From: a virus
IMG/VR virus record: IMGVR_UViG_3300029258_002295
Location: 1 to 27,177 of that record
DNA: 27,177 bases
Direction: 5' to 3' (one strand)
The notes under the pieces are model-generated. The model saw only the letters and a list, made by a program, of their open reading frames with translations, searched no databases and had not been told where the DNA came from. Shown here piece by piece: positions 3,370 through 16,725 of the stretch (the first letter of the stretch is position 1; each line of letters opens with the position of its first letter). A program made the position numbers and the translations under genes.

Positions 3370-3389
3370 GCAACACGAGGAGGATTGGG

Positions 3390-4094
3390 GTGGAGAAATA
3401 TCACAAGATACAGTCGGTCTACCTTCGGTGCACGGAGAAAGGCCCGAACAAGGGCAAGCTCATCGACGGGGCGTGGACCTTGCCCGAGTTCAAGACGCTC
3501 GCCGATGTCCCGTGGGAAACCACGGAGAAGGTTGACGGCACGAACGTCCGCGTATCGTATGATCGAGAGACCGGCGAGGTCGCTATCGCCGGCAGGACCG
3601 ATCGGGCGCAGCTGCCGCCGCATCTTGCCGCGTACTTGAGCGAGACCTTCACACCGGATGCTCTTGCCGCCGCCGACCTGCCCTCGTGTACGCTTTACGG
3701 CGAGGGCGCGGGGCACAAGATCCAGTTCCCCGCCGGGAAGGGATATACAGCATTTGGCGATGGCGCGGGCTTTGTGCTCTTTGATGTCCGAGTGGGGCCG
3801 TTCTGGCTCCGGCGCGATGATGTCGTCGACGTGGCCACCAGGCTCCGTCTGAGGTCTACCCGACAGTACGAAGATATGACCCTGAGCACAGCCATATCTG
3901 TGGTGCGCGATGGATTCCCGTCGTTCCTGGGTGGCATTCGTGCGGAGGGGCTCGTGCTCCGTGCCCCGCACGGGTTGCTCCGGCGCAATTCGGAGCGGCT
4001 CATCGTCAAGGTCAAGACCGTCGACTTCGCCAAGGGCCTGGCGCCTGCTGGCACCGATCCTGGCCCGTTCTCCCCGCGCCCCGGGAGGGAGTAG
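3390..4094 (+). CDS. RNA ligase (Rnl2-like nucleotidyltransferase)
   Basis: Predicted ATP-dependent RNA ligase, joining 3'-OH and 5'-phosphate RNA ends through a lysyl-AMP intermediate. The nucleotidyltransferase motifs appear in order: motif I EKVDGTN with catalytic Lys47, a basic/beta segment, LYGEGAG near residue 110, motif III around F131-D132-V133-R134, motif IV E186-G-L-V-L-R, and motif V with K207 and K209. At 234 residues it has the catalytic domain only, without a large C-terminal domain. The GTG start at 3390 is preceded by AGGAGG at 3378-3383. In phages such ligases repair tRNA or other RNA cut by host anticodon nucleases; no kinase/phosphatase partner is visible here. Family assignment is strong; substrate is inferred. 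Confidence 0.85.
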   Translation: MEKYHKIQSVYLRCTEKGPNKGKLIDGAWTLPEFKTLADVPWETTEKVDGTNVRVSYDRETGEVAIAGRTDRAQLPPHLAAYLSETFTPDALAAADLPSCTLYGEGAGHKIQFPAGKGYTAFGDGAGFVLFDVRVGPFWLRRDDVVDVATRLRLRSTRQYEDMTLSTAISVVRDGFPSFLGGIRAEGLVLRAPHGLLRRNSERLIVKVKTVDFAKGLAPAGTDPGPFSPRPGRE

Positions 4095-4484
4095 ATGGCG
4101 GATTACGTGCCCGAGCTGATGTTGGCAGTGGTGCTGAGCGTGCCGATCGTCGCGTGGGTGGTACAGGCCATCAAGCTACGCCGCGCACTGCGCAGGCCGG
4201 CTGACCCAGCACCGCGTGCACTGCCGCCGCATCCGTGGTGGGGCAGTGCCGAGGTCGGGATTATTTCGAAGCCGCTTCCCGGCGGGGTCGGATACGCGCA
4301 TGTGCCTGGGGCAGAGTGTGGGTACTGGTGTCAGTCCTGCGGTCGTAATTCGTGGTTCCGCACCGGCGATCCCGCGCCGCGGTCGTGCCCGAAATGCGAC
4401 TACACAGGCCTTGGGTGGGACTACGACTCCCGGAAATGGCCGGGCTGGCACGACGGCGGAGGGCGCGGCGATGACGTGTCCTAG
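4095..4484 (+). CDS. Single-pass membrane protein with zinc ribbon
   Basis: The ATG directly abuts the RNA-ligase stop. Residues about 7-27 form one hydrophobic helix followed by a basic KLRRALRR patch, so the C-terminal part probably faces the cytoplasm. A Pro-rich linker leads to a Cys4 zinc ribbon: C79-x2-C82 and C98-x2-C101, with C75 nearby. A membrane-anchored zinc ribbon could recruit a nucleic acid or protein partner to the membrane, but I do not recognise a named family. The last 14 bp overlap the next gene, which also begins with a CxxC motif. Confidence 0.7.
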   Translation: MADYVPELMLAVVLSVPIVAWVVQAIKLRRALRRPADPAPRALPPHPWWGSAEVGIISKPLPGGVGYAHVPGAECGYWCQSCGRNSWFRTGDPAPRSCPKCDYTGLGWDYDSRKWPGWHDGGGRGDDVS

Positions 4485-4968
4485 ATGCGGGGCTACAGAG
4501 GGAGTCGAGGAGAGCGGCGGGTGCACCGTGCACTACTGCCCCAACGGCTGCGGTGAGGTCACGTGGGACAACGAAACAGGCCGAGAGATGTACAGGGATG
4601 GGGCGTACGCCGAGGAGGCAGAGGTGGAGCAGAAGGCACAGGCAGCATACGAGGAGGTCGTTGGCGACGGTGGCTTCCGGTCGCCGCTCATGTTCGGGCA
4701 GATGGTCTACGTGGTCCAGCCGGACATCCCCGGTGGGCCTGGTCGCGTCGCGCCTGCGGTGTTCCTCTGCGATTCGTCCCGCGCGCACCGGACGGCCAAG
4801 GTGGGATACCCGAACGGTGAGTCCGAGAGCGTCGGGCTCGAGCGCGTCTACCTGACGCCGTTCGGCGCTACGGAGGGGGCAAGCGTGGGTGGCTTTTTCG
4901 ACGACAAGAGAATCACCGAGCGGATCGAGGCGTGGGTGCGCCTCGAGGAGGGAGGACACGATGGATGA
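4471..4968 (+). CDS. Zinc-ribbon protein of unknown function (165 aa)
   Basis: I chose ATG 4471, inside the end of the preceding gene, because the protein then begins directly with a zinc site: C3-x2-C6, followed by C18, C23 and C27. The frame is open upstream but lacks a better start. After the ribbon comes an acidic helix (about residues 45-65) and a beta-rich C-terminal region with QMVYVVQPDIPGG and RVYLTPFG. Small phage proteins of this layout often modify host transcription or translation, but that is analogy only. It overlaps the next gene by 8 bp. Confidence 0.7.
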   Translation: MTCPRCGATEGVEESGGCTVHYCPNGCGEVTWDNETGREMYRDGAYAEEAEVEQKAQAAYEEVVGDGGFRSPLMFGQMVYVVQPDIPGGPGRVAPAVFLCDSSRAHRTAKVGYPNGESESVGLERVYLTPFGATEGASVGGFFDDKRITERIEAWVRLEEGGHDG

Positions 4969-5173
4969 GAAGCAGTGCTGGCACAGCGATATCGAGGTTG
5001 CGACACGCACCCTTTCCGACGGGCGCAACACCCCTGGGGCTGGGGTACGCCTGGCGTGCGCGAAGTGCCGGACCACCACCCGCTACAACCAGTACCGGGA
5101 GCGCCGGCCCGAGGAGTGCCCGCACTGCGGGTTCGACGGGACACCGGAGCCGGAGGAGGGGGAGGATGGGTAG
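4961..5173 (+). CDS. Small zinc-ribbon protein (70 aa)
   Basis: ATG 4961 has a strong GAGGAGGGAGGA ribosome site. The core is a clean four-cysteine ribbon, C33-x2-C36 and C53-x2-C56, with basic residues between the pairs (RTTTRYNQYRERR) that could contact nucleic acid. The tail is acidic and rich in Gly, Pro and Glu. It overlaps both neighbours by 8 bp. The zinc site is visible by motif; the function is unknown. Confidence 0.72.
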   Translation: MDEKQCWHSDIEVATRTLSDGRNTPGAGVRLACAKCRTTTRYNQYRERRPEECPHCGFDGTPEPEEGEDG

Positions 5174-5543
5174 GCCCGAGCCAGAGCCCATGCCCAAGGT
5201 CCTGCCGCCCGCTCCGTGGCCTGACCCACCGGCGAGCACCGTCGACAAGAACCAGCTGATCGACCCCGACCACCTGGGCGACGAGGCCCTGGACACCATG
5301 CTCGCGCTGTGGGAGCAGACGAGCGGGGGGCCGTGGCACTTCCACGAGGACGCAGGGGGGTTCAGCGTCAGCAGCCACATCGAGGGGGCGCTCATCGACG
5401 CCCACGGCGACAGCGACGCCGGGGACCACGAGGTCACAATGGACCGGGTAGACGCCAGTTTCATCGCCGAGGCGTGGATGTTCGTCCCGCAGGCGATCCA
5501 TACGATCAAGCGGCTGAGGGCCGCCGTGCGGAGAGGGTGGTGA
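5166..5543 (+). CDS. Conserved-type phage hypothetical protein (125 aa)
   Basis: I chose ATG 5166, which overlaps the previous gene by 8 bp behind GGAGGGGGAGG; the open frame upstream is out of register with any gene-like composition. The protein has a Pro-rich N terminus, a G-P-W motif (SGGPWHFHEDAGGF) and a C-terminal segment of the form D-A-x-F-I-A-x-A-x4-P-x-A-I-x-T-I-x-R-L. The GPW ... FIA ... P pattern recurs in small phage and prophage proteins that I know only as uncharacterised. It is soluble, with no signal. It overlaps the CxxCxxCC gene by 4 bp (GTGA). Confidence 0.7.
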   Translation: MGRPEPEPMPKVLPPAPWPDPPASTVDKNQLIDPDHLGDEALDTMLALWEQTSGGPWHFHEDAGGFSVSSHIEGALIDAHGDSDAGDHEVTMDRVDASFIAEAWMFVPQAIHTIKRLRAAVRRGW

Positions 5544-6019
5544 CCTGGCGCTGCTCTCGCTGTTCGCTCTGTTGCGCGGCCTTCACCCTCTCGAGGGTAG
5601 CCGAGGAGGACGTCGACCGCCTGGGCAGAGAGTTCTTCGTCCGTGATGGGAACGCGTGGGCCATTAGAAAGGCGCCGCGCTCGTGGGCCCCGTGGGCCAA
5701 GGACGGGGTCTGTGTGTTCCTCCAGGACGACCTGCGTTGCTCGGTCCACGACGAGAAGCCGGGGCTCTGCGCCAACTGGTCCTGCGTCGACCAGTACGGA
5801 ACACGGGCGAAGCTAGAGTACGCGAAGTCCATGTATGTCAGAGTTCCTGGGGAGGAGGAGCCGGACGCACGTACGTGCCGTGAGCGATACAGGGCGGTAA
5901 CCCACGGCTGGCTGCCCTGGTGGTACGGGCCTAGTGCGCCTGGTGCCCCGCCACTCGACGACATGATCCAGCGTTCCCCCTGGAGCGCAACCGAACAAAC
6001 GACGGCCCAGGCTGGGTGA
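5540..6019 (+). CDS. YkgJ/CxxCxxCC-family metal-binding cysteine-cluster protein
   Basis: GTG 5540 overlaps the upstream stop in GTGA. Right at the N terminus stands C5-x2-C8-x2-C11-C12, the signature of the CxxCxxCC (YkgJ, PF03692) family thought to bind zinc or iron. The later family cysteines also fit: G-V-C58-V-F-L, L-R-C67-S-V-H, and P-G-L-C77 with C82. Length (159 aa) is normal for the family. The biochemical role of the family is not established; proposals include metal or Fe-S binding and protein modification. It sits directly before the large terminase gene, 22 bp away. Confidence 0.85.
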   Translation: MTWRCSRCSLCCAAFTLSRVAEEDVDRLGREFFVRDGNAWAIRKAPRSWAPWAKDGVCVFLQDDLRCSVHDEKPGLCANWSCVDQYGTRAKLEYAKSMYVRVPGEEEPDARTCRERYRAVTHGWLPWWYGPSAPGAPPLDDMIQRSPWSATEQTTAQAG

Positions 6020-6041
6020 TCTAACGGTTTCATTCGGAGCC

Positions 6042-8921
6042 ATGAACGAACAGAATTCGGACCAGACCCCCGGCGAGGACACCGACACCGAATCACTCGG
6101 GCGCGTACACCCCGATTACCGCCCGCCGCAGCCGCACCTGTTCCGCCTGGACGACGTCGACCGGTTCCGCATCCCCGACGACGACGCCCTGACCCACGCC
6201 GAGCTGTCGCGCATCGCTGCGGCCGTCAAGGAGTACCGGCTCCGCCAGGCGCGGGAGAGCTTCCCCGCGTTCCTTGAGTACGTCTTCCGCGACGAGGACA
6301 GCGACCCCGGCGCACCTGTACCGGTGACCGTCCAGTGGTACCAGGAGCAGTGGTCCCACGCGATGGACACGATCGACCGTCTGGTCATCATCGCCCCACG
6401 CGGTCACGCCAAGAGCACTACTGCCGTCGCTCGAGTGCTGTTCGAGTTGGGGCGCAGCCCCGACCTGCGCATCAAGGTGGTCGGCCCCTCCGACGGGCGC
6501 GCGATGGAGCGCCTGTTCGAGATCAAGCAGCACATCGAGCACAACCCCCGCCTGCGCGAGGTATTCCCCCACCTCCGGCGCCCGCCCGGCCAGGACACCG
6601 AGTTCTCGAAGCACAAGATCATCATCCCGCGCAAGGCCATGCACCGCGACGCCTCCGTCGAGGCGCTGGGCATCACAGCCACGGTCACCGGCGGCCGCGC
6701 GGACCTGATCCTCGCCGACGACGTCGTCGATCGACGTAACGCGATCCAGATGCCCGCGATGCGCGAGGCCATCAAGCAGGCGTGGCACTCGGACTGGATG
6801 CAGCTCCTCGCCCCGAACGCCAGGGTCTGGTACCTGGCGACGCCGTGGCACCGATGTCTCGTTGACGGAGAGATGGTCGAGACCACGCGGGGTCTCGTGC
6901 GGGCCGAGGGCCTCCTGTCCACAGACGAGGTCCGGCAACCAGGGGCAGAGTGGAGTATTCCAGAGGCCATCACGCGCAGACGGTACAGCGGTCCCGTGGT
7001 CAGGGTGAGGGTGACGGGTAGCGTCGTACCACAGACGGTGACGCCGTGGCATAGGTTCCCAACGGAGCGCGGGCTGGTGGAGGCGCGCGACCTGATCGCC
7101 GGTGATAGGGTGTACCTCGACATCCGGACGCCGCCCGAGATGGGCATCGACGACGTATCGGAGATGGAGCCCGCGCCTCGGCCGCGACGCAAGCACCCAG
7201 GCAGCAAGATTGTCCGCAACAGGAAGTCTCGCATATCTCCCGAGGACTTGCAGGCGCGCATCGACAACGGCGAGACCTACGCCAGCATCGCCGAAGACTT
7301 GGGGTACAAGACCGGCAAGAGGATGATCCACTACCTGGTCAAGAGATACGGACTGCGTGCCGGTGATTGCCTGAACCGCGCCCGGCCGGGCTACATGCAG
7401 ACAGAGGAGTTCTGGGCGCTCGTTGGTTACTGGATCGCCGAGGGCTCCGTTGACACCTCGACCTCTGCGACGAGACTCACGTTCGGATACTACGGCGAGG
7501 AATTGGACTACGTGGACGACGCGGTTGCCTGTGTGCAGTCTGCGCTCGGAGTCCCCGTGTCGGTCAATCGCACCGGGCACGCTACCGTTGTCCAGTTCAG
7601 CGAACAGGCGGTAGCCGACTGGTTCCTGGGTGAGTTCGGGGCCAAGGGGCGCATTCTCAAGCTGCCGCCGTGGTTCGAGCGTCTCCCGCAGGCGTTTCTG
7701 GATGCCGCCCTGCGTGCGTACCTGCGTGGAGACGGGGCGTGCCGGAAGGCCAGTACGCAGCGCTACGGGATGCGGCTGTCGACTTCTAGCTACCAGCTCG
7801 CGTGCGGGTGGCGCCGCATCCTGGCTGCGCGATACGGGGCAACACCGCGCATCTACATGCAGCCTAGAACCGAAGAGGCCCGCGGCGATCGCTGGGAGGT
7901 TCGCTGCGAGAGTACCGTGGCGCAGTACCTCGGGGAGGTCGACAGCGTCTCTGTCCCAGAGATGGAGCGCTCGCCACAGATACACAACGACGGCGAGCGG
8001 CTGTGGATGCGCGTGCGAGAAGTACGGGCAGAGCAATACGACGGGCAGATTACGTCTATCGCAACGCCGTCTGGGTTCTACGACACATCTATCCTGACCT
8101 CGCACAATTCGGACCTCACCCACCACCTCATCGACAACCCGGAGTACCACGTCCTGAAGCGGACGGTGGGCGACGGGTTCGCGTCCATCTGGCCGGCGCG
8201 GTTCCCGGAGTCTGTGCTCCGCCGCCGGTACGCCGACAGCGCTATCGAGTACGCCAGGGCCTACCTGTGCCAGGCGCGGGACGAGTCGGAGGCCCCGGTC
8301 CGGCCCGAGTGGTTCCGGTTCGTACGGGCCGACCAGGTCGACCTCGAGGGGCTGACCATCCTCTGCTCGTACGACACCGCTGTCGGGCTGCGGCAGACGA
8401 ACGACTACACCGCCGGCGTCGTCATCGGCGTCCGCGGGTCCGGCGAGATCTACGTCCTCGACGCGTGGCACGCCCGCCTCACGCTCGAGGACCAGGCCGC
8501 GCGCATCTTCGCCGACTACCAGCGGTTCCATCCCGAGCGCATCCTGATCGAGAAGGTGGGGCAGATGGTGCTCGACCAGCACATCCTCTCGAAGTGGCCC
8601 GCCCTCGCCGGCATCGTACAGACCACCACTCCCAAGGTGGGGAAGTTCGAGCGCCTGGTCGGCGTCACACCGCTCATGCAGAACGGCCAGGTCCACTTCC
8701 TCTCGCACCTCAACCCCGACGACCGCGAGGCGTACCGGCCCGGCCGCGGCAACATCATCGGCGAGTTGACCGACTTCCCCATCGCCGCGCACGACGACCT
8801 GGTCGACGCCCTGTCTCAGGGCCTACACTGGGCTCGCCGCTGGATACTCGACCCGTGGGCGCCGCCGCAGCAGGCAGCCCGCGACGAGGAGTTCGGTGCG
8901 CTGGACGATTATTTTGGTTGA
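6042..8921 (+). CDS. terL: Terminase large subunit, split by an intein
   Basis: ATP-driven DNA-packaging motor and headful/cos nuclease. Of 959 residues, 541 are terminase and 418 (272-689) are intein. N-terminal ATPase: Walker A A118-P-R-G-H-A-K124-S-T, and Walker B D221-LILA-D226-D227. The coupling motif Y-L-A-T-P-W-H-R is cut directly after R271, and the reading resumes S690-D-L-T-H-H-L-I. C-terminal RNase-H-like nuclease: D778 in SYD, an acidic residue in ILIEKVG, and D918-D919-L-V-D922. All expected catalytic residues are present, so the spliced protein should work. An active terminase requires protein splicing. The ATG 6042 start has only a weak CGGAG site, and 22 bp separate it from the upstream gene. 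The stop overlaps a strong promoter for the next gene. Confidence 0.95.
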   Translation: MNEQNSDQTPGEDTDTESLGRVHPDYRPPQPHLFRLDDVDRFRIPDDDALTHAELSRIAAAVKEYRLRQARESFPAFLEYVFRDEDSDPGAPVPVTVQWYQEQWSHAMDTIDRLVIIAPRGHAKSTTAVARVLFELGRSPDLRIKVVGPSDGRAMERLFEIKQHIEHNPRLREVFPHLRRPPGQDTEFSKHKIIIPRKAMHRDASVEALGITATVTGGRADLILADDVVDRRNAIQMPAMREAIKQAWHSDWMQLLAPNARVWYLATPWHRCLVDGEMVETTRGLVRAEGLLSTDEVRQPGAEWSIPEAITRRRYSGPVVRVRVTGSVVPQTVTPWHRFPTERGLVEARDLIAGDRVYLDIRTPPEMGIDDVSEMEPAPRPRRKHPGSKIVRNRKSRISPEDLQARIDNGETYASIAEDLGYKTGKRMIHYLVKRYGLRAGDCLNRARPGYMQTEEFWALVGYWIAEGSVDTSTSATRLTFGYYGEELDYVDDAVACVQSALGVPVSVNRTGHATVVQFSEQAVADWFLGEFGAKGRILKLPPWFERLPQAFLDAALRAYLRGDGACRKASTQRYGMRLSTSSYQLACGWRRILAARYGATPRIYMQPRTEEARGDRWEVRCESTVAQYLGEVDSVSVPEMERSPQIHNDGERLWMRVREVRAEQYDGQITSIATPSGFYDTSILTSHNSDLTHHLIDNPEYHVLKRTVGDGFASIWPARFPESVLRRRYADSAIEYARAYLCQARDESEAPVRPEWFRFVRADQVDLEGLTILCSYDTAVGLRQTNDYTAGVVIGVRGSGEIYVLDAWHARLTLEDQAARIFADYQRFHPERILIEKVGQMVLDQHILSKWPALAGIVQTTTPKVGKFERLVGVTPLMQNGQVHFLSHLNPDDREAYRPGRGNIIGELTDFPIAAHDDLVDALSQGLHWARRWILDPWAPPQQAARDEEFGALDDYFG
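6855..8108 (+). mobile_element. Intein with LAGLIDADG homing endonuclease inside terL
   Basis: In-frame 418-residue protein intron. First residue Cys272 (block A, CLVDGEMVETTRG). Block B is near T-P-W-H with the downstream A-R-D-L-I-A-G-D. The last residues are His-Asn (689), followed by Ser690 as the C-extein nucleophile, so all splicing residues are intact. Two dodecapeptide motifs mark a DOD homing endonuclease: A459-LVGYWIAEG and F552-LDAALRAYLRGDG, with acidic residues E467 and D564. Between splicing and nuclease parts, residues about 398-432 form an HTH-like DNA-binding segment. The insertion point is the conserved T-P-W-H packaging motif, a typical essential-site choice. Its codons end in A/T far more often than the flanking terminase codons, suggesting acquisition from another source. 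Confidence 0.93.
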
Positions 8922-8945
8922 CCCGGGGCGTGTGCCGGGTATAAT
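8918..8945 (+). promoter_or_regulatory. Sigma70-like promoter overlapping the terL stop
   Basis: TTGACC at 8918-8923 and a perfect TATAAT at 8940-8945 are separated by 16 bp. In a sequence this GC-rich such a pair stands out. The predicted start of transcription near 8952 leaves a short leader holding the GAGGAGG ribosome site (8963-8969) of the gene at 8976. Confidence 0.75.
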
Positions 8946-8975
8946 AGGAGCGGGCTGTAGCCGAGGAGGTATCTT

Positions 8976-9110
8976 GTGCATAGTGTTGGCGACTGCATCA
9001 CGGCAGAGTGGGCGAACAACGTGGGCCGTGCCATCGCCACCAACCGACTGATCGGCGTGGCGTCGTTCGTGTTGGCACTCGCGGCGCTCGTCGTCGCACT
9101 GGCGACGTAG
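8976..9110 (+). CDS. 44-residue membrane protein
   Basis: GTG 8976 stands 6 bp after GAGGAGG (8963-8969), directly downstream of a strong promoter. The peptide has a polar N-terminal half (HSVGDCITAEWANNVGRA) and ends in one hydrophobic helix of about 20 residues (RLIGVASFVLALAALVVALA), so it should be a C-tail-anchored inner-membrane peptide. Candidate roles include a holin-like or superinfection/host-envelope factor, but no lysis genes are adjacent and I do not assign one. Its own promoter and ribosome site argue that it is real despite its size. Confidence 0.7.
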   Translation: MHSVGDCITAEWANNVGRAIATNRLIGVASFVLALAALVVALAT

Positions 9111-9119
9111 GTGGAGGCG

Positions 9120-9386
9120 ATGTGGACACAGATGCCGATCGAGGTGCCCGGCGCACCCGAGGGGACGTTCACGATCGTGTCTGGCCTTCGGTGGTACGAC
9201 CTGGAGAGGGAGAAGCCGCGCTTCGAGATCGAGGGATCGAGGACTGACGACGGGTTCGTGCTCGGGTTCGAGGACGCGGCGGTCGCGCGCTGCGACGGGG
9301 ACAAGACCGAGATGGTCGGACGCGTCGTGATCGACGACGGCGCAAACAGCGAGGAGGAAGCAGATGGGGAAGGCACTCACCGTTGA
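9120..9386 (+). CDS. Hypothetical acidic protein (88 aa)
   Basis: ATG 9120 is preferred over GTG 9111 because GGTGGAG (9110-9116) can serve only the later start. The protein is beta-rich (GTFTIVSGLRWYDLER, FEIEG, GFVLGFED), soluble, and ends in a very acidic tail that overlaps the next gene by 23 bp. I do not recognise a family. Confidence 0.6.
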   Translation: MWTQMPIEVPGAPEGTFTIVSGLRWYDLEREKPRFEIEGSRTDDGFVLGFEDAAVARCDGDKTEMVGRVVIDDGANSEEEADGEGTHR

Positions 9387-10137
9387 CCAGCGGATGCGCG
9401 TCCACGAGGACGCGGCGCGGAGGATGTTCAAGCACGAGGGCGTCTACGCCTCAGGGGTCGAGCGGTACGAGATGGTTGACGACCTCGCGCAGGGCACGGT
9501 GATGTGCCGCGCGCTAGGCCAGGACGGCCTCGCCGTCTCCATCATCGGCCCGTACCGGTGTGACGACCACATTCTCCATGCCGCCATTCACGAGGCGGAG
9601 GTGGAGGTGCTGTCCGAGGACGAACAGCAGGAGGAGGAGACGAAGATGCAGGAGTTCGAAGTAGGGGACCGTGTGCGTGTTTCCGACGCTGGCCCATGGC
9701 ATGGGAGCTGCGGTACCGTGCGCGGACGCGGCGGCTTCGTGTACCAAGTGCGTCTCGATTGCGGCGAGGTTATCTACGGGCCCGCGAGCTACTACGAGCC
9801 ATTGCCGCATGACAGTATCCGCGCCGGCGACTGCGTGTTCGCTCTAGCGGAACCCCCGGCCCAGTACTTCAAGAGGAACAAGCGGGACGACTACACCCCG
9901 TTTATTGGGCGGACCGGGCAGGTCGCCGCCAGGGCCGCCGCCAGGGCCGCCGCCTGGGCCGCCGCCAGGGCCGCCGCCAGGGCCGCCGCCAGGGACGCCG
10001 CCAGGGCCGCCGCCTGGGCCGCCGCCAGGGCCGCCGCCAGGGCCGCCGCCAGGGCCGCCGCCTGGGCCGCCCAGAACAAAAAGCTGGAGCAGATGCTCCT
10101 TGCTCTTGGGCGTGAAGCCAGGGAGGGTCGACGATAA
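9364..10137 (+). CDS. SH3/KOW-like protein with Ala-Ala-Arg/Trp-Ala repeats
   Basis: A 257-residue protein with three parts. Residues 1-95 are a mixed domain ending in an acidic Glu/Gln stretch. Residues about 96-150 look like a small SH3/KOW-type beta barrel (EFEVGDRVRVSDAGPWHG, then GTVRGRG and VYQVRLDCG). Residues about 188-235 are twelve perfect tetrapeptides of type A-A-[RW]-[AD], followed by a basic helix. The repeat should be a long amphipathic helix with Arg or Trp every fourth residue, suited to binding a membrane surface, nucleic acid or itself. Similar Ala/Trp/Arg runs occur in other phage proteins without known function. ATG 9364 follows GAGGAGGAA. Confidence 0.75.
   Translation: MGKALTVDQRMRVHEDAARRMFKHEGVYASGVERYEMVDDLAQGTVMCRALGQDGLAVSIIGPYRCDDHILHAAIHEAEVEVLSEDEQQEEETKMQEFEVGDRVRVSDAGPWHGSCGTVRGRGGFVYQVRLDCGEVIYGPASYYEPLPHDSIRAGDCVFALAEPPAQYFKRNKRDDYTPFIGRTGQVAARAAARAAAWAAARAAARAAARDAARAAAWAAARAAARAAARAAAWAAQNKKLEQMLLALGREAREGRR
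9925..10068 (+). repeat. Twelve tandem 12-bp units in a coding region
   Basis: Units are GCCGCCAGGGCC with rare single-base variants: AGG to TGG (Arg to Trp) in units 3, 8 and 12, and GCC to GAC (Ala to Asp) in unit 6. The length is a multiple of three, so unit gain or loss keeps the frame. The near-identity of units at DNA level suggests recent slippage or recombination. Confidence 0.95.
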
Positions 10138-10229
10138 TGCCGAGGAAACGATGCGAGTGGGCGGACGCGGTGCTCGAGACCGAGGAACAGGAAGGAGGTG
10201 ACCCGACACACTACACCGACGGGGACTAG
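10137..10229 (+). CDS. Possible 30-residue acidic peptide
   Basis: A short frame starts in a TAATG overlap with the preceding stop and reads MPRKRCEWADAVLETEEQEG and on to a stop at 10227-10229. A good AAGGAGG at 10192-10198 lies inside it and could serve another short frame (GTG 10198 to 10341, basic and low-complexity). Either, both or neither may be expressed. The remaining bases up to 10356 show no better gene. Confidence 0.35.
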   Translation: MPRKRCEWADAVLETEEQEGGDPTHYTDGD

Positions 10230-10356
10230 ACGCTCGCAGAAAAAAGTCACAGGGAAGCGAGCGGATGGTGCGACGAACACCCCTCGCCGTAATGGTGCGG
10301 CGGGGGACTACGACAACGCCCCAGCGAGGGCGAGACGATAGATAGACGGAGGAACG

Positions 10357-10641
10357 ATGAGTTGGGGCGAGCGCAGCTGCGCTTACAGCTACTCGAATAT
10401 GCGACCCGGCCCCGGTGCGCCGACGAGCGCAGGGCGTCCGTGCGTCCCCACCTCGGCCACGTGCAATGTCGACTGCCCGTACTACGAGTGGGACGGATCG
10501 ACGCCGCCGGACTCGGAGCCGGACAAGCAGCGGCGCCTCCGTCAGCGGCGAGAAGACCAGCCGGTTTCCAGGCGCTCGATATCGGCGCTGAGCCGCAACC
10601 AGAGAAAGCGCCGGAGCCGGCGCGAGAGGGGGCGGAGATGA
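10357..10641 (+). CDS. Hypothetical Cys-containing basic protein (94 aa)
   Basis: ATG 10357 follows GGAGG with 5-bp spacing. The first half has several Cys (SWGERSC, GRPC, SATC, VDC) in a Pro/Gly-rich context, and the second half is very basic (repeated R-R-x-R), so nucleic-acid binding is possible. It ends in an ATGA overlap with the next gene, which itself starts with a Cys-rich segment, so the two probably act together. The competing frame here is a composition shadow. Function unknown. Confidence 0.6.
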   Translation: MSWGERSCAYSYSNMRPGPGAPTSAGRPCVPTSATCNVDCPYYEWDGSTPPDSEPDKQRRLRQRREDQPVSRRSISALSRNQRKRRSRRERGRR

Positions 10642-11651
10642 GGATCAGGCCTCTCCTACGGGACGAGGAGCCGGTGTGCAGCCGGGCCTGCGGGTCGCTC
10701 ACCGAGGAGGGCGTGTGCCGCATCACGCTCGCGGATGTCGTCCCCGGGGCGACGCCCTGCTGGCCGTGGTACCGGGACGAGATCCCAGCACTTCGCGACA
10801 AGCGTCGGGCCGCCGCGTGTGGGGAAAAAGGGGTAGTTTTTCCCACAGAAGAGCGGCCGGCGAGCACGGACGCCGAGCGCGAGATCGAGCGGCTGGTCGA
10901 CCTGAACCGGCGTCTCGATGAGGAGCGCATGGCCGCCGCGCGCACCATCGCCGTCGTCGACAACGCCCTCGGCAACGGTGCCGACGAGGCGCTTTGGCCG
11001 CCGGGGTTGACGCGCGGTGAGGCGGTGGCGCGGTTGGTGCGCGCCCTGTCCACCATCGAGGCGCGGGACCGCAAGATTGAGCGGCTGAAGAACGACACAT
11101 ACTGCGCGTATTGTGGGCAGAAGTTTCCGCTGGACGATGAGGCGGCAACCGCAGTTTCTGAGCACATCCACAAATGCACCAAGCACCCGATGCGAGAGGT
11201 TGAGCGCGAACGCGATCACCACCGGAGTGAATGCGCGAGGTTGGGGGCAGAGCTGGACGGATTCCGCGCTGAGTGCAGGCAACTCCGCACTCGCGCCGAG
11301 CAAGTCGAGCGCCGCGTCGCAGAGTTGGAGGCCGCGAACGAGTCCTTGACCTGCGAGAACCAGTGCGCCCACGACGAGGCCGACGACATCCTGGCAGCGA
11401 TCCCCTACCCCGATGATATGGATGGCGATCCGGTGGTGGTTGCTCGGTGGGCTGGGAAGCGCATCGAGGAGCAGCGGGCGAAGTTGGAGGCGGTGAGGGA
11501 GGTTGTCGAGGAATTCGGTTTTCAACTCGCAGTGTGGTCAATGAAGTTACCGCCGTGGGTTCGCGAGGCTGCTGAAAAACTACACGCGGCACTCAGCACC
11601 ACCCCCACCCCCGCACCCCGTGCACCATTTGCGGCAACGTGTGGGCTGTAG
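10638..11651 (+). CDS. Coiled-coil protein with C2HC zinc finger
   Basis: I chose ATG 10638 (GCGGAG site, ATGA overlap with the preceding gene); the frame is open further upstream but overlaps that gene entirely. Of 337 residues, the N terminus has a short Cys-rich part (EPVCSRACGS ... GVCRITLADV). Residues about 75-150 are a helical, Arg/Glu-rich coil. A finger C156-x2-C159-x16-H176-x3-C180 follows, ending in KHPMREVER, and then a long coiled coil (about 185-270). The C-K-H-P-M/L-R-E ending recurs in phage and bacterial proteins I know only as uncharacterised. It may be a structural or regulatory scaffold. The coding region contains a striking hairpin at 10818-10847. Confidence 0.72.
   Translation: MRIRPLLRDEEPVCSRACGSLTEEGVCRITLADVVPGATPCWPWYRDEIPALRDKRRAAACGEKGVVFPTEERPASTDAEREIERLVDLNRRLDEERMAAARTIAVVDNALGNGADEALWPPGLTRGEAVARLVRALSTIEARDRKIERLKNDTYCAYCGQKFPLDDEAATAVSEHIHKCTKHPMREVERERDHHRSECARLGAELDGFRAECRQLRTRAEQVERRVAELEAANESLTCENQCAHDEADDILAAIPYPDDMDGDPVVVARWAGKRIEEQRAKLEAVREVVEEFGFQLAVWSMKLPPWVREAAEKLHAALSTTPTPAPRAPFAATCGL
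10818..10847 (+). other. Near-perfect inverted repeat inside a gene
   Basis: The left arm TGTGGGGAAAAA (10818-10829) pairs with the right arm TTTTTCCCACA (10837-10847) across a 7-base loop, with one bulged G. It is the most AT-rich patch in its neighbourhood and codes for EKGVVFPT. It could fold in RNA as an intragenic attenuator or terminator-like hairpin, or serve as a palindromic protein-binding site. Confidence 0.7.
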
Positions 11652-11685
11652 GCTACATGCTGTTGAGCGTGAGAAAGGACGAGCA

Positions 11686-12069
11686 ATGAACGAGACGACG
11701 ACCGAGAACCATCCGCCCCCAGGACCACTCGACCAGGTCTACCAAGACGAGGTGGCCCCCCTGCTCGAGCGCATCCGCGAGGTGGCCCGCGAGCACACGC
11801 TCCCGTTCTTCTTCTGCATGGCCACCGACTTGGAGGTCGGCGACGAAGGGTGGAGCGCGCGCCGCCATCTGGCGTGCGACACCGGCATGACGCAGGAGGA
11901 GGCGGAGGCGGCCGTAGATAGCGGCAAGACGTCCGACTTCGCCCGGGCCCTGCTCGCGGCGCGTATCGCCGGACACATGCGCGTCGAGGAGGAGGGGTGG
12001 GTGCCTGTCCGGCCCGAGGACGCGAGCCGGGTCATGCAGGAGTGGGCCGACGGCGAGGACGATGCGTAG
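11686..12069 (+). CDS. Hypothetical protein (127 aa)
   Basis: ATG 11686 follows AAGGA at 11675-11679; an upstream ATG in the same frame would overlap the previous gene without a ribosome site. The protein has a helical N-terminal half (VAPLLERIREVAREHTLPFF), a beta centre and an acidic C terminus. A pattern of this kind, a helix followed by LPFFFCMATDLE, suggests a small alpha/beta fold. Family not recognised. It overlaps the lipoprotein gene by 8 bp, so the two are probably co-expressed. Confidence 0.68.
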   Translation: MNETTTENHPPPGPLDQVYQDEVAPLLERIREVAREHTLPFFFCMATDLEVGDEGWSARRHLACDTGMTQEEAEAAVDSGKTSDFARALLAARIAGHMRVEEEGWVPVRPEDASRVMQEWADGEDDA

Positions 12070-12979
12070 ACCGTGGACCTGGTACGCCGGAGCCGTGCTT
12101 CTCGCGGTTTGTGCTGCGGTGCTCGCCGTAGTAGTCGGTGGGACCCTGGCTGGGTGCGACGCGCAGATCTACCCGTACGCTGGAGAGCCGCACCCCGGCG
12201 ACGGGCGTAGTTGGGACGGCGGCGCGCCGGGCGACGGCGAGCTGTTGCTGGAACAACCCGATGGCGGGGAGGCCGGAGGAGACGCCGATGCGGATACAGA
12301 TGCCGATAGCGACGCTGATACGGACGTCGACGCCGACGCCGACAGCGATTCCGACGTGGACGCCGACACGGACGCTGATGCTGACGCCGACGCGGACACC
12401 GATACTGGCAGCCAGGTGGGCCCGCCGTGGGATGCCGCGCCGCCTGACGCGGCGGACAGCTCGAGCACTCCTCCGCCTGATACGGACACGGGCAGTGACG
12501 TTTGCGGGGACGCCGGGGCTGACGCGGACGCGGATGGCGACGCCGACACGGACACGGTAACAGAGACCACGAGCGGGACCGGTGACGACCCTGGGCCGTG
12601 CGCCCACCTGCTCGGCGTCAGCGGCGTCTACTGTGATCAGGCTACCGGCTGGGCCTGGGCAATGGCCACGTCTGAGGGGACCTACGCCGAGTGCTCGACG
12701 TGGTGCGCTGGGCTGACCTGGGCCGGTTCGGCAGACTGGAACCTCCCGCTCCACGTCGACCTCGCCGGACTCATCACGCCCCCCGCCGCCGAGGGGTGCC
12801 ACTGGGACGAGGCGGTCTGGGGCACCGGGTGTCCGGGCCTCCCCTGGTGGGGGTCGCCGTACACCGGAGAGACCGCGATGGTCGTCGACTTCGCGACGGG
12901 CGTCTCGTTCACGTTGTCGGTTTGGGAGCAGGGCCGGTGCCGGTGCTCCACGTACGCCTCGCTCGTCCCGGTGGACTAG
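12062..12979 (+). CDS. Lipoprotein with Asp-rich tract and DUF1566-like domain
   Basis: A 305-residue surface-type protein. It has an N-terminal basic-hydrophobic signal (residues 1-31) ending in a canonical lipobox L29-A-G-C32. Residues 74-115 are 21 Asp-X dipeptides (X is Ala, Thr, Ser or Val), with a second short Asp-rich stretch near 155-170. The C-terminal domain (about 178-305) carries DUF1566-like hallmarks: YCD-x2-T-G-W-A-W, T-Y-A-E-C-x2-W-C, D225-W-N-L-P229 then D-L-A-G-L-I, and paired Cys. Such domains have a C-type-lectin-like fold and are frequent in secreted proteins of Myxococcota and relatives. The residue after Cys32 is Asp, an inner-membrane retention signal in E. coli. Likely envelope cargo expressed in the host, not a virion part; host adhesion is the alternative. 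Confidence 0.8.
   Translation: MRRPWTWYAGAVLLAVCAAVLAVVVGGTLAGCDAQIYPYAGEPHPGDGRSWDGGAPGDGELLLEQPDGGEAGGDADADTDADSDADTDVDADADSDSDVDADTDADADADADTDTGSQVGPPWDAAPPDAADSSSTPPPDTDTGSDVCGDAGADADADGDADTDTVTETTSGTGDDPGPCAHLLGVSGVYCDQATGWAWAMATSEGTYAECSTWCAGLTWAGSADWNLPLHVDLAGLITPPAAEGCHWDEAVWGTGCPGLPWWGSPYTGETAMVVDFATGVSFTLSVWEQGRCRCSTYASLVPVD
12281..12406 (+). repeat. Asp-X dipeptide coding repeat
   Basis: Twenty-one consecutive GAY-NNN pairs code for Asp followed by Ala, Thr, Ser or Val. The codons for both residues vary from unit to unit (GCC, GCG, GCT; GAC, GAT), so the pattern is kept by protein selection rather than by recent DNA slippage. It likely forms a flexible, possibly calcium-binding, spacer. 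Confidence 0.9.
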
Positions 12980-13061
12980 CCCGTCAACTCATAGGTTGCG
13001 CGGCTGCCCCAGCCCGTCAATGTGCACGTTGCGGAAAAAGCGACCTCCTGCGTCTTTCCTG

Positions 13062-13089
13062 TTGACAACCCCAGCAACCGCGTTATTAT
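13062..13089 (+). promoter_or_regulatory. Sigma70-like promoter
   Basis: Perfect TTGACA at 13062-13067 and TATTAT at 13084-13089 with 16-bp spacing. Transcription should start near 13096, giving a leader of about 33 bases with GAGGAGGG (13114-13121) before ATG 13129. The 82 bases before it hold only two copies of AGCCCGTCAA (12978 and 13011). Confidence 0.78.
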
Positions 13090-13128
13090 ACAGACATGAA
13101 CGGGGCACACAACGAGGAGGGACGCGAG

Positions 13129-13275
13129 ATGAAGAAGCTGGACCTGGGGAACAACGAGACGATCTCGAAGGGCATCATCGACAACGGCGACGGGACGTTC
13201 ACGGCGATGACCTTCACGCGCTCCAAGACCTTTAAGACTCGCGCCGGTGCCGAGCGCTGGCTGGCCAGAAACTAA
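13129..13275 (+). CDS. Small basic phage protein (48 aa)
   Basis: ATG 13129 is preferred over ATG 13096, because the latter lies at the predicted transcription start while 13129 sits 7 bp after GAGGAGGG. The protein has a G-D-G-T-F-T-A-M-T beta segment followed by S-K-T-F-K-T-R-A-G-A-E-R-W-L-A, a short basic helix. I recall this K-T-x-K-T-R-x-G-A-x-R-W-L ending from tiny phage proteins of unknown function. It has its own strong promoter and a hairpin right after its stop, so it looks like a separate one-gene unit. Confidence 0.75.
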   Translation: MKKLDLGNNETISKGIIDNGDGTFTAMTFTRSKTFKTRAGAERWLARN

Positions 13276-13288
13276 TCCGCCCCTATCC

Positions 13289-13314
13289 CGCCACGCGTCA
13301 CTGGACGCGGGGCG
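13289..13314 (+). terminator. Hairpin after the 48-aa gene
   Basis: CGCC-A-CGCGTC (13289-13299), loop ACTG, GACGCG-G-GGCG (13304-13314): ten base pairs with one A-G mismatch, starting 14 bases past the stop codon. There is no T-tract, so intrinsic termination is uncertain; it may stabilise the transcript end instead. Confidence 0.5.
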
Positions 13315-13377
13315 CAGATAGCGGCACACCGGGTAATTATGTCTGCGTACGAGAGCAAAAACACGGAGGGAAGTGAG

Positions 13378-13590
13378 ATGGCAAGCGGCAACACATGGAC
13401 ACGAATTACCGACTCCGACGGCGGCGGGGGTTTGGGGCTGACGACCGATGGCGAGAAAGAGCAGGCCGAATTCATGGACCGTCACGCAGCGCAGATGTGT
13501 GAGTGCGGCGTGAGTTTCGAGTATCGCCCGACGTGTGGCGTTATGCAGTGCCCGATATGCGGCGAGATAGATTGGGACGCGCCCTGCTAG
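13378..13590 (+). CDS. Small Cys-rich zinc-ribbon-like protein (70 aa)
   Basis: ATG 13378 has a GGAGGGAAGTGAG ribosome site; the in-frame ATG at 13339 has none. The N-terminal 40 residues are Gly/Asp/Thr-rich. The C-terminal half holds C41-x-C43, C53, C58-x2-C61 and a final Cys70, a probable zinc ribbon (C-P-I-C-G). Function unknown. It lies between the hairpin at 13289-13314 and the promoter at 13619-13648. Confidence 0.65.
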   Translation: MASGNTWTRITDSDGGGGLGLTTDGEKEQAEFMDRHAAQMCECGVSFEYRPTCGVMQCPICGEIDWDAPC

Positions 13591-13618
13591 TCTACCACTA
13601 CCTCGAACCATCCACAGA

Positions 13619-13648
13619 TTGACGCACGCCGCACCCGCGCGCTACACT
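13619..13648 (+). promoter_or_regulatory. Probable sigma70-like promoter
   Basis: TTGACG at 13619-13624 and TACACT at 13643-13648, spacing 18 bp. Transcription would start near 13655, just before the GAGGAGAG ribosome site (13656-13663) of the gene at 13670. Confidence 0.55.
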
Positions 13649-13669
13649 GGCCCGCGAGGAGAGCGGCTC

Positions 13670-14077
13670 ATGACGAAAGACACGACGCAGGACTGGGATG
13701 GGGCCCGGTGGGACGGGCGGTCGCTCTACACGTTCGCCCCAGCGATGGTCGCCGTGCAACCCAGGACGGACTGGTATTTCGCGTTTGGGCAGTTCGTCGA
13801 GCTGTCGCCCGGCGCAGAGCTGGTACCGGAGGGCGGGTGCAACGACGGCCTGGTCTGCCGTGTGGTAGACGCGGCGTGGCCGCCTGGGCTACGTGTCCAA
13901 TTCCCGCTGGACAAACTTGGCCAGTGGGCGAACGAGGGCCCGGCCGGGCGCGTCGATCCGACGCAGGTGCTCCGATGCGGCCACGTCAGGCCGGTTGCAG
14001 GATGCCGTCGCTGCCTCTTCCTGGCCCTTCGAAAGAAGGCCGACGCCGAGGGCGTAGAGTGGGACGCCGATGCCTGA
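13670..14077 (+). CDS. Hypothetical protein with CGH-CxxC motif (135 aa)
   Basis: ATG 13670 lies 6 bp after GAGGAGAG and behind a promoter; the open frame upstream to 13619 contains the promoter itself. The beta-rich body includes MVAVQPRTDWYFAFGQF and a WPPGLRVQFPLDKL segment that resembles a small barrel. A zinc-knuckle-like C103-G-H105 and C112-x2-C115 near the C terminus is followed by a basic helix. Family not recognised. It overlaps the next gene by 8 bp. Confidence 0.7.
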   Translation: MTKDTTQDWDGARWDGRSLYTFAPAMVAVQPRTDWYFAFGQFVELSPGAELVPEGGCNDGLVCRVVDAAWPPGLRVQFPLDKLGQWANEGPAGRVDPTQVLRCGHVRPVAGCRRCLFLALRKKADAEGVEWDADA

Positions 14078-14528
14078 CGCCGCCTACGACTACAACCACG
14101 CACGCTACGCCGAGGACGTGAACCTCGCCGCGGCCGATCCCGGATGCCAGCGGTGCCAGGGGACTGGATACACCGGGGCCACCGTCGAGCCGGATGCAGA
14201 GATGCGCACGGCTGGAGTCACGGACCCGATCCCCGTGGTCTGTCGGTGCGTGACGCGCAACAACGGCGTAAAGCCAGGCACGTCGCCGAACGAGCGCGCG
14301 CGGTCACAGATGGAGCGCGGGATCCGTGACGATGTCGCGAGCGGGGCATGGGCGCGCAAGCACGCAGGCGACGTACTCCGCAACGTTCCGCCTTGGCGGC
14401 AGATCATCGTCGCAGCGCGCCTCGAGGAACAGGCTACCACGGTCGAGGATACCGACGCCGCGACCGCCACCGCTTTCCGCGAGGCCGCACGCCTCATCCG
14501 GGAGGGTATCGATGCAGCACTACAGTAA
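14070..14528 (+). CDS. DnaJ-type zinc-motif protein (152 aa)
   Basis: Residues 26-34 read C-Q-R-C-Q-G-T-G-Y, the CxxCxGTG motif of DnaJ-like zinc centres, completed by C58-R-C60 after a short loop. The C-terminal 70 residues are helical (ERARSQMERGIRDDV, then a helix rich in Ala and Glu). One CxxCxG motif is too few for a real DnaJ, so this is probably a small zinc-binding adaptor. It overlaps the next gene by 17 bp. Confidence 0.7.
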   Translation: MPDAAYDYNHARYAEDVNLAAADPGCQRCQGTGYTGATVEPDAEMRTAGVTDPIPVVCRCVTRNNGVKPGTSPNERARSQMERGIRDDVASGAWARKHAGDVLRNVPPWRQIIVAARLEEQATTVEDTDAATATAFREAARLIREGIDAALQ

Positions 14529-14829
14529 CCCAGACTTCGCCCGCGTGGCGTCCGTTGTCCAGACCGGCGCTGGCGACTCGGTCAAGATCCGAGGCACCGG
14601 CACCACGTCGGTCCTCATCGACTCGACGTCCTGGAACGGTACAGCCGTGCTCGAGGGCGCCGTTGCTGGGCACCAGGCGAACGCCGTGTGGGATACCATC
14701 GCCGTGGTCCCCGCCGGGTCGTCCCAGGTGGCCCACGCCCTCCCTCCGCAGTACACCCACATGCGCCTGAATTGTTCGGCGTACACCGCCGGGGACGCCA
14801 AGGTCCACGTCGTCCACGAGCAGGACTAG
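14512..14829 (+). CDS. Beta-rich probable virion protein (105 aa)
   Basis: ATG 14512 lies within the end of the preceding gene behind GGGAGGG. The protein is almost wholly alternating beta strand and turn (SVKIRGTGTTSVLIDSTSW, GTAVLEGAVAG, AVWDTIAVVPAGSSQ, KVHVVHEQD), as in head-decoration or neck proteins. It comes directly before the portal gene, which fits a structural role. The exact role is unknown. Confidence 0.65.
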   Translation: MQHYSNPDFARVASVVQTGAGDSVKIRGTGTTSVLIDSTSWNGTAVLEGAVAGHQANAVWDTIAVVPAGSSQVAHALPPQYTHMRLNCSAYTAGDAKVHVVHEQD

Positions 14830-14832
14830 ACC

Positions 14833-16725
14833 GTGGGGGGACCGCGAGCACGCAAGCGGAAGGGCGACTCCAAGATCGACCCGGTAGTCGAGGGCGACCT
14901 CCAGGACGTGGAGGGGATTGACGATCTCCTCGCCAAGGCCCGCGTACTCACCGGCAAGGCCAAGACAACCCAGGACGCGCTGGCCGCCCTGAACAACCTC
15001 CGCCAGGCGGCGAAGGAAGCCAAGGCCGTCACGCCCCGGTACGACCCGGAGGCCCTCGCCCTTTACGCCGAGGTGTCCGAGGCGCTGCGCACGAACATCG
15101 ATGGCTACGTCACGAACATCGAGAGCCACGGCCACCGGTTCGACCCCGTTGTCGACCTCCAAGAGGACGGCATCCGCGAGAAGATTCGCCGGGCGCTTGC
15201 GATGGACAAGTACCTCGACACGGTCGACATCGCAAGGGAAAAGCTCGCCGAGGCGAGAAACAGAACGGAACGAGAGGCGGCCGAGGCGGCTGTCGCGCAG
15301 GCCGAGGAGCAGCTAGTAGACCCGGCAACGGTCACCGACGAGCAGGTCGATACAGCGATTGCAGATCTTCGGCTCCGAATCGACCAGGACAGGTTCCTCG
15401 CCACCGCGTGGTTCAACAACTGCGCCACGGCAACGGACCACTCGTTCGAGAACCTCCGCCGGCTGAAGCGCGCCGGCGAGGAGGCCGTCGGCCACGCCGC
15501 GTGGGAGTGCCTGCGGGACTCAACCGGCAGGCTTCGTCGGCTGAAGCACATCGCCTCGCACACCGTCTACCCGGTCGCCCTGATCCCCGAGGACACCGTC
15601 TCTGTTTCGCAGTCCGAGATGGTCAGCCCGGTCACCTGGCGCGACTTCCCGGTCGACCAAGTGATGCCACGCTACGTCCAGATCGACCCCGAGACGGGGA
15701 CACGGACGTACTTCAAGACACTGGGCGACCCGCGTGTCATCTCCCAGGTCAAGGGGCTACCGTACGAGGACGACAAGGCACTCCAGGAGGCAGAGCGAGA
15801 CGAGGATGCCGATGTGGTCGTCGACGTCCCGCACGCGAACGAGGTGATCTGGTTCGACGTGCACTCCGACCTGACCCCCGCCGGCGTTCCTCGATGGATC
15901 GGCGCCCTGCTCGAGGTGCTAGGCAACCGCGGTGCGTCCGAGGTCAACTACACCTACCTGGACAACAAGGCTGTTCCGCCGGCCCTGCTGATGGTCGACG
16001 GGCGTCTCCGCCGCGGGGCTCGCGAGCGGATCAAGCAGTTCTTCAAGGTCGGGGTGAAGGGTCGCCGGAATTGGGACCGCGTCGCCGTCATCGACGACGC
16101 CCTGATGGACGCCGCGCCGAACGAGGACGCCAAGCGCCGCCCGGTCGAGTTCATCTCTCTGATGGACCTCCAGCGCGGGGACGCTCTGTTCCGAGAGTAC
16201 CGGGCAGACAACCGCGACGTCATCGGAGCCAACTTCCGCCAGCCGGCCCCGCTCCGCGGCGAGGTGCCCAAGGACCTCAACCGGGCGACCTACTACGGGG
16301 CGCTCAGGTTCGGCGAGGAGCAGGTATACGCCCCCGAGCGAAACGCGTTCGACGCGTACATCAACGCCACCCTGATGCCGGCCATCGGATTCCGCTACGT
16401 GCGGTTCCGCTCGAACTCGCCGGTCATCGTAGACCCCGATCTGAGGGTCAAGCTGCTCGAGATGTACTCCAAGTACGCCGGGGTCAACCCGGCTCATCTG
16501 CGCGTACTGGCCGCCGACGACTTCAACATGCCGCAGCTCCTCGAGGGCCTCGATGCGGCCTACCTCCAGCAGCCGCTTCAGCTGACACTCGCCACCGGAG
16601 GCGGCGCTGGAGAGACAGCGGAGCAGGTCGAGATGCGACTCGCCGCGATCGAGGACATGGTTGCCGCCGACGCGTGGGCCAGGCTCAACGGAGACGAGCC
16701 GCCCCCGGGCGAGGAGGGTGCGTGA
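14833..16725 (+). CDS. Phage portal protein (PBSX/HK97-like family)
   Basis: Dodecameric ring at the packaging vertex through which DNA enters and leaves the head. 630 residues from GTG 14833. The core family segments are clear: V352-P-R-W-I-G-A-L-L-E-V-L-G, then EVNYTYLDNKAVPPALLMVDG-type sequence, and N467-FRQPAPLRGEVPKDLNRAT followed by ALRFGEEQVYAPE. Between residues about 110 and 200 there is a charged coiled-coil segment (REKLAEARNRTEREAAEAAV), longer than I expect in this family. A coiled-coil-poor Pro/Glu tail ends the protein. It is followed in GTGA overlap by a 62-residue gene. Assignment rests on these motifs and on the gene order portal, minor head, protease, capsid. Confidence 0.9.
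   Translation: MGGPRARKRKGDSKIDPVVEGDLQDVEGIDDLLAKARVLTGKAKTTQDALAALNNLRQAAKEAKAVTPRYDPEALALYAEVSEALRTNIDGYVTNIESHGHRFDPVVDLQEDGIREKIRRALAMDKYLDTVDIAREKLAEARNRTEREAAEAAVAQAEEQLVDPATVTDEQVDTAIADLRLRIDQDRFLATAWFNNCATATDHSFENLRRLKRAGEEAVGHAAWECLRDSTGRLRRLKHIASHTVYPVALIPEDTVSVSQSEMVSPVTWRDFPVDQVMPRYVQIDPETGTRTYFKTLGDPRVISQVKGLPYEDDKALQEAERDEDADVVVDVPHANEVIWFDVHSDLTPAGVPRWIGALLEVLGNRGASEVNYTYLDNKAVPPALLMVDGRLRRGARERIKQFFKVGVKGRRNWDRVAVIDDALMDAAPNEDAKRRPVEFISLMDLQRGDALFREYRADNRDVIGANFRQPAPLRGEVPKDLNRATYYGALRFGEEQVYAPERNAFDAYINATLMPAIGFRYVRFRSNSPVIVDPDLRVKLLEMYSKYAGVNPAHLRVLAADDFNMPQLLEGLDAAYLQQPLQLTLATGGGAGETAEQVEMRLAAIEDMVAADAWARLNGDEPPPGEEGA

Follow-up and report, generated by a model that had tools for sequence, protein, structure and literature searches.

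The gene at positions 12062-12979 of the window (a 27,177-base IMG/VR virus record, itself a fragment) likely encodes an exported, lipid-anchored protein of the host envelope rather than a component of the virion, and its product probably alters the surface of the infected cell instead of joining the virus particle. This reading, which had been proposed in an initial annotation, draws on a signal peptide with a lipobox, on the presence of homologues with Asp-X tracts on chromosomes of the Myxococcota group, and on the absence of any match to the protein among PHROGs and isolate phages. Other viral contigs, like Myxococcota-group chromosomes, encode proteins of the same architecture.

Anatomy of the gene and predicted export

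The gene, its upstream neighbour and the parts of the product that precede the C-terminal domain are as follows.

11620-12069, + strand: upstream ORF of 149 aa with no assigned function, overlapping the lipoprotein gene by 8 nt
12062-12979, + strand: coding sequence of the Asp-X/DUF1566 lipoprotein, 305 aa plus stop (ORF listing)
12062-12157, + strand: signal peptide with lipobox L-A-G-C and predicted lipidated Cys32, after which the mature chain reads CDAQIYP (translation, hydropathy)
12281-12406, + strand: main Asp-X tract, residues 74-115, 21 D-X pairs (run length against shuffles, mixed codons, imperfect DNA repeat)
12521-12556, + strand: second, short Asp-X tract, residues 154-165 (12 residues; run length analysis)

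The reading frame, the Asp-X tract and the overlap with the upstream gene are all borne out as the initial annotation had described them, and the ATG at 12062 is the earliest ATG, GTG or TTG past the preceding in-frame stop. The product consists of four parts, namely a signal peptide with a lipobox, a Gly/Pro-rich spacer, the Asp-X tracts and a head of 127 residues; the mature protein has a net charge of about -55, and the protein as a whole contains no lysine.

The N-terminus, MRRPWTWYAGAVLLAVCAAVLAVVVGGTLAG followed by C32, combines two arginines with a strongly hydrophobic core (Kyte-Doolittle mean 2.65 over 19 residues) and the lipobox TLAG preceding C32. A PROSITE-style rule places the lipobox cysteine at positions 15-35, and the charged n-region (RR), the hydrophobic h-region and a cysteine within this range, Cys32, are all present. 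The hydrophobic segment is also long enough to act as an uncleaved anchor, which counts against the lipoprotein reading. The expected destination of the product depends on the sorting rule that is applied. In E. coli an Asp at +2 leads to inner-membrane retention, and under this rule the Asp at +2 of the mature chain would imply retention in the inner membrane, which counts against a surface location. In M. xanthus, Lys at +2 keeps lipoproteins in the inner membrane and Ala at +7 directs them to the matrix (PMC3222651); the mature chain CDAQIYP, with Asp at +2 and Pro at +7, carries neither of these signals, and the outer membrane is therefore the default reading.

The longest Asp-X run comprises 42 residues, whereas shuffling the residues of the protein 20,000 times never gave a run longer than 14. 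The aspartates of residues 72-116 are encoded by GAC and GAT in the proportion 13/8 and the X codons vary, so the tract is a feature of the protein and not a simple DNA repeat or microsatellite. Matches to NCBIfam Sdr/Clf adhesins were discarded as low-complexity Asp-rich similarity.

PADLOC returned no match for the protein. Neither the whole protein nor its head had a relative in direct searches of IMG/VR, GTDB contigs, isolate phages and plasmids; its relatives came from distant profile and tract searches.

The head domain

12596-12976, + strand: head, Lcl_C/DUF1566 with C-type-lectin-like fold, 127 aa, 8 Cys, 10 Trp (Pfam, profile, AF2, Foldseek)
12704-12706, + strand: Cys215 in helix alpha-1 (model helix 30-39), near-invariant DUF1566 cysteine, kept in 104/106 domains
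12794-12832, + strand: motif GCHWDEAVWGTGC, shared among 114 domains only by L215 (phage) and L095 (chromosome)
12944-12946, + strand: Cys295 in the last beta strand (model strand 113-120), near-invariant partner cysteine, kept in 99/106 domains

The head belongs to the DUF1566 family, as had been suggested, because a weak Pfam match is backed both by a Myxococcota-group profile and by the predicted structure. The match to PF07603 (Lcl_C/DUF1566) has an E-value of 9.2e-5 and a score of 23.2 bits (23.2-25.6), which does not reach the curated Pfam cut-off of 34.9; a profile built from Myxococcota-group DUF1566 matches without the phage query gives 53 bits over residues 189-295. AlphaFold2 predicts a C-type-lectin-like fold (CTLD) with a pLDDT of 85.5 from a 12-sequence alignment which held canonical DUF1566 members and may bias the model towards this fold. 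The only PDB match found by Foldseek at E<0.001 is the C-terminal domain of Legionella Lcl (Lcl-CTD, 8q4e; E 1.1e-4), and VIA-align of the head model scores the Bdellovibrio Bd2740 tip (8oks) at Z 10.8 and 8q4e at Z 9.7, with many C-type lectins also among the matches.

The conserved YC and RCV cysteines of DUF1566 are both present, as Cys215 and Cys295. Their placement in helix 1 and in the last strand, judged from these elements rather than from the model coordinates, is what we take to be the hallmark position of the C-type-lectin disulfide. Two further cysteine pairs, 180/191 and 246/257, are common to the phage head and the heads of L215 and L095, and the motif GC.WDE..G..C occurs in these 3 of the 114 domains. 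The phage head lies on a long branch in a tree of the 114 DUF1566 domains, with support of 83/49 and a placement that is not firm, so it is not claimed to descend directly from either L095 or L215.

DGR variable proteins with DUF1566 (PMC4159848) belong to the same domain family, but this identity was rejected for the present protein, since the 27 kb window holds no template/variable (TR/VR-like) repeat; PHROG scans of the main ORFs of this fragmentary record also gave no reverse transcriptase match.

Genome neighbourhood

6042-8921, + strand: terminase large subunit containing a LAGLIDADG intein (domain/PHROG matches)
8922-14832, + strand: accessory interval between terminase and portal, with the lipoprotein gene and other small ORFs, absent in the related phage L119
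13062-13089, + strand: sigma70-like promoter TTGACA-16-TATTAT (11/12), one of 2 such sites against 0.3 expected
14833-16725, + strand: portal protein (domain/PHROG matches), 37% identical to the portal of L312
17285-19393, + strand: Mu-F-like gene (domain/PHROG matches)
20832-21578, + strand: protease (domain/PHROG matches)
22726-23682, + strand: major-capsid-like protein, most similar to proteins of Myxococcota genomes

The lipoprotein gene lies, as first described, between packaging and head genes in the orientation of the phage, with the terminase upstream and the genes from portal to capsid downstream, all on the + strand. The terminase ORF of the related phage L119 ends at 3341 and its portal match begins at 3347, whereas the corresponding gap in the window is 5.9 kb; the lipoprotein gene therefore sits in an accessory interval, which agrees with its earlier description as cargo. 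A strong promoter-like site begins 83 nt past the stop codon, so the gene probably closes a transcription unit.

Several other features of the window were recorded. The terminase insert, which follows ...LATPWHR, starts with CLVDGEMVETTRGLVRAEGL, holds LAGLIDADG_3 and ends with ...TSHN before SDLTHHL; the L119 terminase has no interruption at this site. Positions 2299-2763 encode a second candidate exported lipoprotein, unrelated to the first, of 154 aa, Cys-rich, with a hydrophobic N-terminus and the lipobox-like sequence LTVGC31. An RNA ligase-like gene (phrog_548, E 2.1e-12) occupies positions 3390-4094, towards the start of the record, and a 12-bp repeat at 9924-10071 (12.3 copies, 94% match) encodes an Ala/Arg-rich (RAAA)n stretch in the ORF at 9364-10137.

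Asp-X lipoproteins on other viral contigs

Pattern scans of IMG/VR, which were restricted to exact patterns, found at least 131 loci with an Asp-X tract, and among those listed there are at least 19 candidate ORFs in which a lipobox precedes the tract. At least 13 of these were judged by eye to be plausible lipoproteins (L118, L120, L126, L128, L192, L194, L215, L259, L260, L272, L273, L289 and L305), and two ORFs of the same build that the lipobox filter had overlooked, on L122 and L224, bring the total to about 15 as a lower bound. DUF1566-like heads are found, among the contigs listed, on L215, L224, L260 and L305. The viral nature of L118, L120, L122, L224, L260 and L289 follows from the presence of portal and/or terminase genes, and the Asp-X gene of L215 is surrounded by phage-type genes; listed contigs with no identified viral hallmark gene could be host DNA.

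The contig L120 carries, in consecutive order, a terminase gene (PHROG 2), an Asp-X lipoprotein gene and a portal gene (PHROG 2662/12), which is the same slot as in the window, and BLAST of these three proteins against the window gave no match. The large viral contigs L122, L224 and L260 (125-195 kb) have neighbour genes in common and the Asp-X lipoprotein at the same place. Another viral contig, L324, contains at 2968-8676 no fewer than nine short ORFs (60-96 aa) in tandem, each of which matches part of the DUF1566 profile (LTYxEAWLYCxTLDYxGHKDWRMPT).

It is quite possible, if short of probable, that unrelated phages of Myxococcota-type hosts repeatedly carry host-like lipoproteins with Asp-X stalks and varied heads (CTLD/DUF1566, Cys-rich modules and others), as a form of surface mimicry that would exclude rival phages or redirect contact between cells. 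No account of phage-encoded Asp-X/DUF1566 lipoproteins was found in the literature outside subscription papers, which is weak evidence of novelty.

Chromosomal relatives and the host

A search for host homologues, which the initial annotation had recommended, found Asp-X proteins with a DUF1566 head on Myxococcota-group chromosomes. Relatives of the head occur in 10/24 genomes of a sample known to carry Asp-X tracts, and in 26/282 Myxococcota in a wider draw. The closest chromosomal architecture is that of L095/L130, from the Deltaproteobacteria MAG STA_58, in which a D-X tract of 62 residues is joined to one DUF1566 head that is 36% identical to the phage head over residues 8-114 of the 126-aa query. 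The L095 frame starts at a stop and has no readable signal peptide, and lipidation is not claimed for it; a signal peptide and lipobox are readable in the chromosomal relatives L137, L143 and L154. These chromosomal proteins (L095/L130, L137, L143 and L154) resemble the phage protein in having a stalk and a head, and in several cases a readable lipobox, but they are usually longer and often have two DUF1566 domains.

Proteins with Asp-X tracts are plentiful in some Myxococcota genomes, and the L095 genome contains about 3,000 overlapping matches to a loose tract pattern. A strict pattern is found in 17/140 Myxococcota as against 1/150 Pseudomonadota genomes, or 16/139 against 0/149 when two centre genomes are removed, several of the Myxococcota genomes with the strict pattern having already been among the matches of an earlier tract scan. 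The capsid-like protein of the window is 45-47% identical to proteins of three Myxococcota genomes, as against about 36% to isolate phages. A prophage-like region of L312, a Myxococcota contig of 416 kb, has a portal 37% and a Mu-F protein 39% identical to those of the window, and the order of the portal, Mu-F, protease and capsid genes is the same; no Asp-X protein was found near the L312 portal. The distribution of the tract, the nearest head homologue and the likeness of capsid, portal and Mu-F to these Myxococcota proteins all uphold the Myxococcota-like host that had been proposed, which was probably a soil or water bacterium of this type.

Comparison with known systems and proposed role

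The head resembles Lcl-CTD in its domain family (by profile), in its CTLD fold and in its position at the tip of a surface-exposed stalk, the exposure being predicted in the phage case. It differs in that its Pfam score lies below the cut-off, that the stalk is Asp-X rather than collagen and that the protein is predicted to be lipid-anchored; in addition, Lcl-CTD has no disulfide, whereas the phage head retains both of the cysteines that most DUF1566 domains have in common, and it is without lysine, with a net charge of about -10. The tip of the Bdellovibrio MAT fibre, Bd2740, shares the CTLD fold (rmsd 2.5 over 99 residues), but it is only 12% identical, it is the tip of a trimeric fibre, and no lipid anchor or Asp-X tract has been described for it. 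The superinfection-exclusion lipoproteins Llp of T5 and Cor of the T1 type are likewise phage-encoded, small and equipped with a lipoprotein signal, and they act on the envelope, which is the predicted target here. These families are short and diverse, and the phage protein gave no PHROG match at E 0.1 and no match among isolate phages. Receptor-masking phage lipoproteins are known mainly from coliphages, and we know of no Asp-X stalk or CTLD head described for Llp or Cor.

Export through the Sec pathway would be followed by cleavage by signal peptidase II to leave a lipidated Cys32, and the acidic Asp-X stretch may form a flexible stalk, keeping the disulfide-rich, C-type-lectin-like head at a distance from the outer membrane, a build that would copy the surface lipoproteins of the host itself. 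The head would then bind a glycan or protein of the cell surface, and so change what an infected or lysogenic cell binds, although no ligand site can be read in its sequence. Llp of phage T5 is a lipoprotein that disables FhuA as a receptor (PMC9586334), Lcl-CTD binds GAGs/sulphated glycans (PMC11162425), and Bd2740 is the prey-contact fibre tip of Bdellovibrio (PMC10769870); together these precedents favour receptor masking or another remodelling of the surface. Receptor masking, and with it superinfection exclusion, is tentatively predicted as the single most likely purpose, and altered adhesion is predicted to rank second.

The alternatives can be weighed against this reading. It is unlikely that the protein is cargo for adhesion or predation, helping a lysogenic or infected host to attach to surfaces or prey (lysogenic conversion) with no anti-phage effect. 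The nearest folds do include adhesins, Lcl-CTD (PMC11162425) and Bd2740 (PMC10769870), and the chromosomal relatives are Asp-X proteins of the host, but a fold that is common to adhesins does not prove adhesion, and there is no sign of a temperate lifestyle, no integrase being seen in the fragment.

There is little probability that this is a host gene captured recently and without function in the phage. Its host-type architecture, and the lack of the gene in L119 and in the prophage-like region of L312, would fit such an origin, but the ORF is open and intact, its GC and GC3 resemble those of the phage, and comparable genes are found on further viral contigs, one of which (L120) has it in the equivalent slot.

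Still less probable is a receptor-binding protein of the virion, in which the head would be an element of the tail tip and the N-terminal segment merely a membrane-docking helix. The CTLD/DUF1566 fold alone is compatible with such a role, because likely virion receptor-binding proteins carry heads of this kind: phage ORFs that resemble tail fibres (L317-L323, assigned to the tail by appearance) contain DUF1566 domains, CTLD/DUF1566 heads are found in BFVD phage proteins, one of which has an S74 domain, and Mtd of a Bordetella phage has the same fold (PMC10769870). The tail-fibre-like copies, however, lack both lipobox and Asp-X tract, and the form that combines these two is found on chromosomes and at non-tail positions in phages, so the initial annotation's concern that relatives might be confined to phage tail genes is answered. 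The gene itself precedes the portal and lies outside any tail module, its product has a complete lipoprotein signal, and the proteins most closely related to it share its build, Asp-X tract included.

Least probable of all is a lysis protein, a spanin-like lipoprotein of the outer membrane, for which the position near packaging genes would speak (lysis genes often adjoin the terminase, and the spanin lipoproteins of lambda and T7 lie near packaging genes), since the interval 8922-14832 holds no holin- or endolysin-like neighbour, with no other hydrophobic segment among its ORFs and no PHROG lysis match, and since the head is a CTLD and neither a spanin coiled coil nor a short Pro-rich peptide.

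An envelope lipoprotein that remodels the surface of the infected cell would be of particular relevance to the Myxococcota, a phylum of predatory and social bacteria in which contact is governed by surface proteins. If lipoproteins of this modular, lectin-headed type prove recurrent in the uncultivated phages of this group, the combination of a lipobox with an Asp-X tract would provide a signature both for surface-remodelling cargo and for the assignment of hosts.
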